From NCBI GenBank assembly GCA_017412625.1, contig JAFPWZ010000084.1, forward strand, positions 1 to 53,610: DNA of 53,610 nt. The letters run 5' to 3'. Position 1 is the stretch's first letter; the number at the start of each line of letters is the position of its first letter. Positions 7,803 through 37,868 of the stretch are shown here, in pieces. This DNA comes from Methanomicrobium sp. GTDB lineage: Archaea; Halobacteriota; Methanomicrobia; Methanomicrobiales; Methanomicrobiaceae. The notes under the pieces are model-generated. The model was not told the DNA's origin and searched no databases. It was given only the letters and a program-made list of their open reading frames with translations. The position numbers were made by a program, and so were the translations under genes.

Positions 7803-8141
7803 TGTTTCCTCCAATTTTTATAACATGTTCTCTTTGATACATTATTAAATCATCCATTCACAAGCAGAATTTTTTAATTTAGACAATTTTATTAAATATT
7901 TGCGATAAATCCGTTAATCAAAATTCACAATTGTTAATCGACGTAACGCGGTCGGATCGGATATGATGATCAAAAGCCGGTTGCCGAGTCCGTAAAAGAC
8001 GCGCAAAAACAATCGTCAACACATAAGCAACACATCAGTAACACATCAGGTACGGCAGCAGAAAATAATCCCGACAGAAAATAATAACCGAAAGATAACG
8101 AAAGAGTCAGATTGAGTCAGAAAAAACTTAAAAAAACAAAG
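7803..8141. other. Gene-free spacer with short repeats
   Basis: No gene seen. The promoter for the SepCysS operon should lie at its left end, where the sequence around 7835-7930 is very AT-rich. The right part carries small direct repeats: an ACACATCAGTA-type 11-base unit repeated three times near 8019-8053, and CAGAAAATAAT twice near 8059-8086. It ends at the 3' end of the first tRNA-Asp gene. Confidence 0.5.
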
Positions 8142-8214
8142 CGCCCAGCTCGGAATTCGAATCCGAGTCGCAACCGTGACAGGGTTGCATGATAGGCCTC
8201 TACACTAGCTGGGC
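8142..8214 (-). tRNA. tRNA-Asp (GTC), copy 1
   Basis: The minus strand folds as a 73-base tRNA. It has acceptor GCCCAGC paired with GCTGGGC, discriminator G, anticodon stem CAACC/GGTTG around the loop CTGTCAC (anticodon GTC), and T stem TCGGA/TCCGA around TTCGAAT. CCA is not encoded. A TATA-like sequence at 8241-8250 lies about 30 bases upstream. Between them is a short inverted repeat, GACATC-GGT-GATGTC (8222-8236). The gene is identical to the copy 340 bases further along. Confidence 0.97.
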
Positions 8215-8250: not shown

Positions 8251-8481
8251 GACTTAGGGGTTTTTAATCTCTATGATCCGTCTTTCACGTAAAACCCGAC
8301 AAGTCGGGAGAGCAAAAGACGAAAGCCGGAATACTCAAAACCTCAAATCGAAAATCAAAACCAAAACAAAAGAAAATCAAAACTAAATCAAAACCAAATC
8401 AATGCAAAATCAAAACAGATACCCAAAATCAAGAAGAGATACTCAAAAATCAGTAACGGAAAATCGAAAAAGAAAACTTAG

Positions 8482-8554
8482 CGCCCAGCTCGGAATTCGA
8501 ATCCGAGTCGCAACCGTGACAGGGTTGCATGATAGGCCTCTACACTAGCTGGGC
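8482..8554 (-). tRNA. tRNA-Asp (GTC), copy 2
   Basis: Identical over all 73 bases to copy 1, with the same fold and GTC anticodon; identity extends only one base beyond each end. It starts 33 bases after the end of the tRNA-Tyr gene on the same strand, with no TATA box between, so it is probably processed from a tRNA-Tyr/tRNA-Asp precursor. The 266 bases between the two tRNA-Asp genes hold no gene, only A-rich AATCAAAACC-type repeats. Confidence 0.96.
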
Positions 8555-16913: not shown

Positions 16914-16965
16914 GGATTATTTTCCAAAAACGGTTTTTATACCGTGATATTCACTTCTTTCACGG

Positions 16966-17730
16966 TTATGACAGAGCATCAACGAATTGATCTCTCTGTG
17001 AATTTTTCAGAATCTCAATCTTATATTCTCTGCATATCGACTCAAAATCACGACCGATCTTTTTCTCATCATTGACGATGATATATGCCTTATTATTATC
17101 CCCCCTTACCTGACCGATGTCGTATAACTGAAACGCATAGTTAGCGGCATCCGCTTTTCTGGGATTGTTGCAGACATTCAGATATCTGTCGGGAGCATCC
17201 TTGGAATGCGGGATAACAAAGTCAAACGCATGGTCGACTCCTGATTTGCCGGCAATTTTGACATTCGGCAGATATCTGATATTGACGGATTTAAGCCATC
17301 TCTCCACATCATCAAAGAAGAGATTTCTGACTGTAGGAAATGAGGTATATGCAACATCTCCTATTGCAAGAACCGCCTGAATAAGATCGTTCTTCTTCTG
17401 CGCGAAATTATCCTGTTGAGCAACTGCAGTCAGCTCCGTGCCTTCGCGCTGAATGCCGAAACGCATCAGAGTGTAATCAATGATCTTTGACCGAGTCGGC
17501 GTTGTCACGTCGCATCCGGACATTTTCAGTCCCTGTAAGGTTTCACCGCCGTCTGTCAGGTCTACAGTGCCGTCAATGTTCTGTCGGACATAGATCTGAA
17601 TGCAATCGTTATCGATATCCAGAAACGGCGTCGTTATCTCCGACCATCCGTTTTCCAAAGGATATGCCGAGAGATCCTTCTTCAGCCACGCCAGATATGT
17701 CTGTATGAAATCGGGTTGAACTGCGGCCAT
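16966..17730 (-). CDS. DUF1828/DUF1829 domain protein
   Basis: A 254-residue cytoplasmic protein. The first about 90 residues fit DUF1828 (DIDNDCIQIYV, DLTDGGETLQGL) and the rest fits DUF1829. This two-domain protein is scattered across bacteria, often near phage or defence genes, and its biochemical function is unknown. Its start overlaps the preceding gene by 49 bases with GGTGAG upstream, so the two proteins form a coupled pair. Context suggests an accessory module, possibly a toxin-antitoxin or antiviral pair; this is inference. It separates nnr from the RecJ-like gene, both housekeeping. Confidence 0.8.
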   Translation of the reverse strand: MAAVQPDFIQTYLAWLKKDLSAYPLENGWSEITTPFLDIDNDCIQIYVRQNIDGTVDLTDGGETLQGLKMSGCDVTTPTRSKIIDYTLMRFGIQREGTELTAVAQQDNFAQKKNDLIQAVLAIGDVAYTSFPTVRNLFFDDVERWLKSVNIRYLPNVKIAGKSGVDHAFDFVIPHSKDAPDRYLNVCNNPRKADAANYAFQLYDIGQVRGDNNKAYIIVNDEKKIGRDFESICREYKIEILKNSQRDQFVDALS

Positions 17731-18191
17731 AATCTCACCAATTTAGTCTGAATATCGATATTATGTCTGATATTACAATATGTCAAAAAATCATATAGAG
17801 TTTGTGACGGATTTTTGAGGTCGGAGAAATTATCTGCCGGAACGGGATATGCCCATGCCGAAGTTCCGTCCCGGTATATATGAAGATGCGGACCCGTTAT
17901 TGTTTCTCCGTCGGGATTGACGTGCCTCGCCCGCGGGTAGGTGTCAAGCCGAATTAACGGGTGTGTCACTCTTTTTGATCGCAGTTGTTCCTTTATCTTG
18001 AACTCAACAAACCCGCATCCCACATCCAATACGAAACGTTCCGTGCAGTCTTCCGATATGAGGTCATACTCCGCTTCCCTATTGCATGCGGGTAAGGGTA
18101 TTGAATGAAGTTCACTGTCCATGAATCGCTTCTCCATCCCGATAAGTTCCACCGCTTCCTCATCCGTGATATTTGTCTCATTGTCTGCCAT
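17682..18191 (-). CDS. DUF6978-like partner of the DUF1828/1829 protein
   Basis: A 169-residue protein with an N-terminal helical stretch, then a mixed alpha/beta domain with RFVLDVGCGFVEFKIK, LIRLDTYPRARHVNPDGE and GPHLHIYRDGTSAWAYP. I recall this HLHIY arrangement from small bacterial proteins filed as DUF6978, usually beside a DUF1828 protein. The histidines and acidic residues could form a metal or nuclease site, but no known catalytic motif is certain. GGGGAA precedes the ATG. It is the first gene of the pair and overlaps the second by 49 bases. Confidence 0.7.
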   Translation of the reverse strand: MADNETNITDEEAVELIGMEKRFMDSELHSIPLPACNREAEYDLISEDCTERFVLDVGCGFVEFKIKEQLRSKRVTHPLIRLDTYPRARHVNPDGETITGPHLHIYRDGTSAWAYPVPADNFSDLKNPSQTLYDFLTYCNIRHNIDIQTKLVRLWPQFNPISYRHIWRG

Positions 18192-18322
18192 ATCTTCCCC
18201 TATTCAGATTCATACAACAGACTCTGTATTTTACATAAATATCGATCGTCCGTGCGGCGCGAAAGTATTAACCGAAAATTCTTCTGAGAATTGTTTTCTT
18301 CTTGTAAAACAGATCAGTATTA

Positions 18323-36794: not shown

Positions 36795-37868
36795 TCAGTT
36801 CAGCTCACGCTCAATCTCTTCGATGGTCGGGAGCGTTCCCTTGAAGTCTTCGGGCACGAGATCTGACAGTTCATACTCGGATATGCCGACGGGCGCCTTT
36901 GAAACGTTTACCGCATACTGTGCAAGGACATTGTCCTTATTCTTGCAGACAAGCAAGCCGACGGTGGGAGCATCACCTTCCTTTCGCAGAATGCCGTCAA
37001 CCGCCGCAACATAGGTTCCTATCTGTCCCATATCGCCGGGTTCGAAAGCCCTTGTTTTAACCTCGATAACGACATAGCAGTGCAGGGCGATGTTGTAAAA
37101 CAGCATATCGATAAACTGCTCGGTCTCACCTACTTCGAGGCGATATTCGCGCCCGACAAATGCGAATCCGGTGCCGAGTTCCAGCAGGAACTTGGAGATA
37201 TTATCCATAAGGGCATCCTTAAGTTCCTTCTCGTAGTATCCCTCCGTAATAGTGAGAAAATCAAAATTATAAGGATCCTTCGTCATCTCCTGCGCAAGAT
37301 CGCTCTGCGGCGACGGAAGAGTATTCACAAAATTTGAAATCGCTTTTCCCTGTCTTTCAAAAAGGTTCGTATCGAGGAAATTAAGCAATACGGCACGTGA
37401 CCAATTGTTTTCGAGAGTCTTTTTCACATAGAACAACGCCTTATCCCTCTCATCCATGCACTTATCGATGATATAACGGTGATGTCCCCACGGGATCATA
37501 AAGACATTCATCTGCGCCACAACATCGGGTGTAATCTCAACACTGTTGAATTGTCCCACAACTTGCGGCAAATTTGTTTCAAGTGAGTAAAGTTGGTAAA
37601 ACTTGTGCATATATCGGAGATTTCTCGGCGAAAATGACTTCACGCTCGGCAATTCCCGCGTTATATCATCACTGATCTTCTTATAGAATCCGCTACCCCA
37701 ATTATATTTTGACTTAAGGATCTCCATATTACGTCCCAAAGACCAGTAAAACATCAGCATCTCACGATTTACAGAAGATGCCGCCTTTATTTGCCTCCGG
37801 TGGAACTCTTCTTTCACCTGCATTATCCATTTATGATAGACTTCATCGTTTTTTGCGATTTCTGCCAT
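36795..37868 (-). CDS. YhcG-type PDDEXK nuclease (DUF1016)
   Basis: A 357-residue protein of the DUF1016/YhcG family. The N-terminal DNA-binding-like domain (about 1-130: YWSLGRNMEI, SFSPRNLRYMHKFY) is followed by the family linker and IPWGHH. The C-terminal PDDEXK nuclease domain has FVGREYRLEVGETEQFIDMLFY and the catalytic VIEVKTRAFEPGDMGQI. Such proteins are common on mobile or accessory DNA, and their targets are unknown. Here the linker is expanded, with LPQVVGQFN and DVVAQMN repeats. The gene stands alone, and copies of its linker sequence lie downstream. Confidence 0.9.
   Translation of the reverse strand: MAEIAKNDEVYHKWIMQVKEEFHRRQIKAASSVNREMLMFYWSLGRNMEILKSKYNWGSGFYKKISDDITRELPSVKSFSPRNLRYMHKFYQLYSLETNLPQVVGQFNSVEITPDVVAQMNVFMIPWGHHRYIIDKCMDERDKALFYVKKTLENNWSRAVLLNFLDTNLFERQGKAISNFVNTLPSPQSDLAQEMTKDPYNFDFLTITEGYYEKELKDALMDNISKFLLELGTGFAFVGREYRLEVGETEQFIDMLFYNIALHCYVVIEVKTRAFEPGDMGQIGTYVAAVDGILRKEGDAPTVGLLVCKNKDNVLAQYAVNVSKAPVGISEYELSDLVPEDFKGTLPTIEEIERELN

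Follow-up and report, generated by a model that had tools for sequence, protein, structure and literature searches.

Several described systems resemble, each in part, the two genes that are reported here. TumE has been found by experiment to be toxic, to lower protein synthesis and to be neutralised by its partner TumA; the RNase activity proposed for it is unproven (PMC10584680). Ntox24 is a predicted RNase toxin that is also encountered in toxin–antitoxin loci (PMC3482391). In the validated defence system DS-6, also termed HipAD, the partner of the HipA-like toxin (DS-6B) carries a DUF1829 domain, and AlphaFold3 predicts binding of this protein to DNA as well as to the kinase (PMC13092281). 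The PDC systems, finally, are candidates, for the most part unvalidated, that came to light because they are embedded in known defence loci (PMC12988326). One of these, PDC-M24, is a named candidate in many bacterial phyla, archaea, prophages and plasmids; in the literature searched it was not named and no validation of it was found.

Here we describe two overlapping genes, A and B, of Methanomicrobium sp. that reside in a stretch of 53,610 nucleotides (contig JAFPWZ010000084.1, hereafter the window). The encoded proteins match both PDC-M24 models of PADLOC-DB 2.0.0 over nearly their full length, A the PDC-M24A model PDLC04538 (E 3.4e-34, residues 8–150) and B the PDC-M24B model PDLC04539 (E 1.7e-79, residues 6–253), and the genes are adjacent and in the same order as in that system. 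Both proteins are also present in PHROGs as families of unknown function. The pair is thus not new as a defence candidate, and the window copy is a new archaeal member; what we add is a proposed toxin class for A, the fold of B, an empty site, a one-sided dependence of A on B, and a set of phage proteins that correspond to one half of B. In the reading that we favour and hold to be fairly probable, the pair is a toxin–antitoxin-like abortive-infection module of the PDC-M24 type, with A as the toxin and B as both antitoxin and sensor.

A probably horizontally acquired insert between conserved genes

Both genes are encoded on the minus strand, A first and then B, and the features of the locus are as follows:

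16950–18294, no strand assigned: insert of ~1.35 kb with A and B only; borders are approximate and follow from the empty site of sister genome G005
18192–18294, minus strand: region upstream of A within the insert, presumed promoter
17682–18191, minus strand: gene A, 169 aa, DUF6978 / PDC-M24A, proposed toxin; based on matches to PF22398 and PDC-M24A and on conservation
17682–17730, minus strand: 49 bp shared by the 3' end of A and the 5' end of B; based on ORF coordinates
16966–17730, minus strand: gene B, 254 aa, DUF1828 (residues 34–123) and DUF1829 (residues 161–246) / PDC-M24B, proposed antitoxin and sensor

The original prediction had described two genes that overlap by 49 bases and form an island between housekeeping genes, and both parts of that description are borne out by the reading frames and by the flanking DNA. 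The overlap exceeds the 4 bp that are usual in the family because the C-terminus of A runs ~15 codons beyond the family consensus; these extra codons constitute a low-confidence part of the structural model of A. Each ATG is preceded by a ribosome-binding-like stretch, aggggaagatATG ahead of A and ggtgagattATG ahead of B, and a palindrome search upstream of A returned no clear operator-like palindrome beyond repeats of 6–7 bp.

The pair is flanked by an NnrD-type gene and a DHH-family gene, both of which are present in all 28 relatives tested, where they are usually adjacent and divergent. In G005 the DNA on the DHH side matches at 96% identity as far as window position 18295, and only ~100 bp, with no insert, separate the two flanking genes, which denotes an empty site; the left border of the insert (about 16950) was placed by eye. 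The G+C content of the insert is 0.447 versus 0.583 and 0.547 for the flanking genes. The A/B pair is an insert that was probably acquired horizontally, and the empty site of G005 provides a natural genome pair for comparison. Neither an integrase nor a transposase gene was detected in the insert, and no defence genes adjoin it. The corresponding gap in a further congener, G001, is occupied by another gene (L162, 270–1133) that by eye reads like a flavodoxin- or ferredoxin-type protein; the DHH/NnrD site therefore seems permissive and may be a small insertion spot. Elsewhere in the window, two tRNA-Asp(gtc) genes (8141–8214 and 8481–8554) lie on the same strand ~270 bp apart.

Fixed, vertically inherited presence beside metabolic genes, the pattern that the original prediction had set against its own reading, was looked for and not found: B is missing from all five other genomes of the genus that were searched and the G005 site is empty, and a fixed housekeeping pair was rejected on this basis.

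Distribution and genomic company of the pair

B was found in nine of 80 relatives (0/5 in the same genus), always with an identity below 40%. One genome scan yielded 365 relatives from many phyla, the best 80 of which were retained, and A and B also occur in temperate phages, in one satellite phage and on plasmids; in several temperate phages the pair is situated between the repressor and the integrase. A tree of B places the window copy on a very long branch, away from those of Methanoregula and Methanospirillum. That B descended vertically within the order was rejected on this grouping, with the caution that long branches demand, and the placement fits an independent acquisition of the window B, the exact place in the tree being unsure owing to the long branches.

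The divergence of the window B on its long branch, together with the lack of mobility genes and of adjoining defence genes, might suggest a decaying or silent insert with no present function, or else a pair with a housekeeping-like regulatory role. We consider this highly improbable, since both frames are intact and retain the signature residues, and the distribution is patchy and mobile.

The two genes keep close company. Of 101 B genes, 91 are immediately preceded on the same strand by an A gene, in most cases with an overlap of 4 bp, and the pairing is far above chance. Among 295 archaeal-phylum genomes DUF6978 was found in nine and DUF1828 in 22; all nine genomes with A have B side by side with it (chance of co-occurrence 1.2e-11), as all seven viral contigs that were found by A carry B. 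The remaining 13 archaeal B genes include nine with a diverged A-type gene directly upstream, three without an A-type gene there (L176, L178 and L179) and one, L009, with none at the threshold used. Hence A was not seen without B, whereas B is sometimes found without A. The operon arrangement is not obligatory, as in two viral loci (L148 and L151) A and B lie on opposite strands and converge; in L148 phage repressor and integrase genes adjoin them. By eye, the DUF1828 gene without A in L179 lies beside an AAA gene and a small partner gene, and that in L176 beside a large ATPase; these two lone DUF1828 genes may belong to other defence operons. Two adjacent small genes, of which the toxin candidate was not encountered without its partner, are reminiscent of type II toxin–antitoxin systems. 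In contrast to these, B with its 254 aa is larger than A, which is unusual for an antitoxin, and is devoid of a recognised DNA-binding domain of the classical antitoxins.

The wider surroundings of the pair, which the original prediction had suggested as a check, show an enrichment of type I restriction genes at a distance of up to two genes. The four nearest genes around 30 loci (120 proteins) yielded ten matches to type I REases and ten to type I MTases, versus at most one and at most two, respectively, for the 117 proteins encoded at distances above 5.5 kb; some of the loci are closely related (L030–L032) and the effective number of loci in this count is therefore smaller. Other Pfam domains encoded nearby comprise DUF1016/YhcG, the TOTE primase, Abi_C and AAA. 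The window copy stands alone; besides the pair, the one strong PADLOC match in the window is to PDC-S02, ~19 kb away; this unvalidated defence candidate (36795–37868, E 2.5e-153) comes with an additional PD_DExK-associated match.

The occurrence of the pair on plasmids and in phage lysogeny regions, and its position alone between housekeeping genes in the window, would also suit an addiction or maintenance module of plasmids and prophages that has no antiviral role and is kept as loss of B frees A. We regard this as unlikely in view of the proximity of restriction genes and of the fact that the system was catalogued through its embedding in defence loci (PMC12988326), although addiction and defence are not mutually exclusive. 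The earlier notion of a patchily distributed pair of the toxin–antitoxin, anti-phage or anti-plasmid type, with this locus as an archaeal example, fits the distribution, the catalogue entry and the restriction context, at the level of a candidate.

Gene A and its distant similarity to TumE

Protein A belongs to DUF6978, as had been proposed (PF22398, E 3.2e-31, 108.8 bits with a Pfam cut-off of 29.6 bits), and the conserved HLHIYRDG-type motif that had been noticed was located in it. A search of NCBIfam returned no match. In 76 homologues R81, H90, N92 and A114 are invariant and D83, P93, H102, H104 and Y106 are at least 90% conserved, with D94 also among the conserved residues. A wider set of A-type proteins (n = 90) retains R81, H90, N92, H102 and H104 at 97–100% and D83 at 88%.

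The arrangement of these residues, R-x-D followed by H and then HxH, is colinear in the hhalign alignment with the R-W-D-N-x-P-H-H ... P-H-x-H of TumE (PF20126, former DUF6516). Profile comparisons of A with TumE scored 28.8 and 31.4 with the main set (hhalign probability 32–50%), and 29.9 (44%) and 41.3 (89%, E 2e-6) once divergent partners were added, as against at most 17.8 for column-shuffled controls and 11.8 for a reversed alignment. Pfam matches to TumE were obtained for two of the 76 homologues (best E 3.6e-4) and to Ntox24 for 14 (best E 0.0077), and the window's own A matched neither at E <= 10. When the TumE profile was run against 5,704 ORFs the top matches were A proteins, with E values of 0.0017 to 0.3 that are near background. 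Judged from these profiles, the apparent relation of A to TumE is one of distant similarity and not of family membership; the similarity to Ntox24 (PF15529), itself a mostly-beta toxin with conserved histidines, appears weaker than that to TumE, and the profile matches are too weak for claiming membership.

The structural models of A and B were built with alignment rows from genomes only, phage and plasmid rows being left out. The model of A (pLDDT 81) portrays a strand-rich sheet between two helices. TumE has been described as a seven-stranded antiparallel sheet with two helices; the model of A appears to accord with this description in its strand-rich fold between two helices and its lack of a PDB match. 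Searches with the fold of A retrieved nothing useful from the PDB or from viral proteins, among which an uncharacterised phage protein was the best match (E 2e-3); by sequence, no meaningful solved relatives of A, B or TumE were found.

There are clear differences too. A is not above the Pfam cut-off for TumE and possesses an extra NPDG stretch and an HIYRxG...A hairpin. Compared to TumE–TumA, the proposed toxin gene comes first in the A/B pair, and its partner is a 254-aa DUF1828–DUF1829 protein instead of the small TumA. Ntox24, for its part, usually forms the C-terminal part of exported toxins. Under the favoured reading A would be a toxin, probably a metal-independent endoribonuclease that stops translation, and would act through its conserved Arg/Asp/His cluster (R81, D83, H90, H102 and H104).

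Gene B, its nuclease-like fold and phage DUF1828-only proteins

B combines DUF1828 (PF08861, E 1.3e-25) with DUF1829 (PF08862, E 9.9e-21), both far above the Pfam cut-offs and in agreement with the family assignment made at the outset. Its model is confident (pLDDT 93), and the DUF1829 half is modelled with the order helix–strand–strand–strand–helix–strand that is characteristic of the PD-(D/E)XK superfamily. A Foldseek search of the PDB gave ten matches at E <= 0.001, of which the named ones all belong to this superfamily: Card1, Can2, Cdn1, AF1548, NucS/EndoMS and restriction enzymes. B thus shares with the PD-(D/E)XK nucleases the fold and strand order of its C-terminal half and D170, which is 93% conserved; E140/D141, D204, R209 and N220-D221 are strongly conserved as well. 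It differs from them in the third strand, where residue frequencies at positions 182–188 revealed no conserved acidic-x-Lys pair. Nuclease activity of B is therefore doubtful, and binding is the likelier role.

These matches and conserved residues raise the prospect that B is the effector, a working atypical PD-(D/E)XK nuclease directed against invading DNA, with A as a regulator or sensor subunit, and the B genes that stand without A would accord with it. We deem this improbable: the third strand lacks the residue pair, the catalytic-looking cluster is in A, which was never encountered without B, the pattern of a toxin, and in HipAD a DUF1829 protein partners a kinase toxin. DUF1829 is all that B and DS-6B have in common. 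The HipAD toxin is a HipA-like kinase, DS-6B has DUF3037 where B has DUF1828, and no kinase and no DUF3037 were detected in A or B that would place the pair in that system.

From these distant similarities we infer the toxin class of A and the antitoxin role of B. The original prediction knew of no established biochemical role for either protein; roles can now be proposed through the likeness of A to TumE and the DUF1829 domain shared with HipAD. In the toxin–antitoxin-like module that we favour, B would bind and restrain A and would sense infection or foreign DNA, probably via its degenerate PD-(D/E)XK half, whereupon A would be set free and growth would stop (abortive infection).

Six of the 24 viral contigs that were found with B hold the DUF1828 half only, in the following frames:

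L152, L153, L154 (7989–8384): DUF1828 only
L158 (7989–8366): DUF1828 only
L159 (7372–8061): DUF1828 only
L160 (7998–8447): DUF1828 only

The encoded DUF1828 halves span about 125 aa, stop at roughly the same point after a KHNLIQAI-type helix and form three sequence groups (L152/L153/L154/L158, L159 and L160). No frame in these six loci encodes DUF1829 or A. Four of the six genes are well inside their contigs, and phage lysis, helicase-loader-like and methyltransferase genes are among those nearby. From their domain content, these phage proteins could be decoy antitoxins or antitoxin mimics. It is conceivable, if rather doubtful, that DUF1828/DUF1829 constitutes a portable antitoxin-sensor that serves different toxins, a TumE-like RNase here and the HipA kinase in HipAD, and that phages counter it with a decoy of the DUF1828 half.

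The link between DUF6978 and TumE furnishes the proposed toxin of PDC-M24 with an active site and a mechanism that can be tested, and counter-defence could be probed directly with the DUF1828-only proteins of phages. The degenerate nuclease fold of DUF1829, a domain that is also present in HipAD, suggests that a common antitoxin-sensor module may stand behind different toxins.
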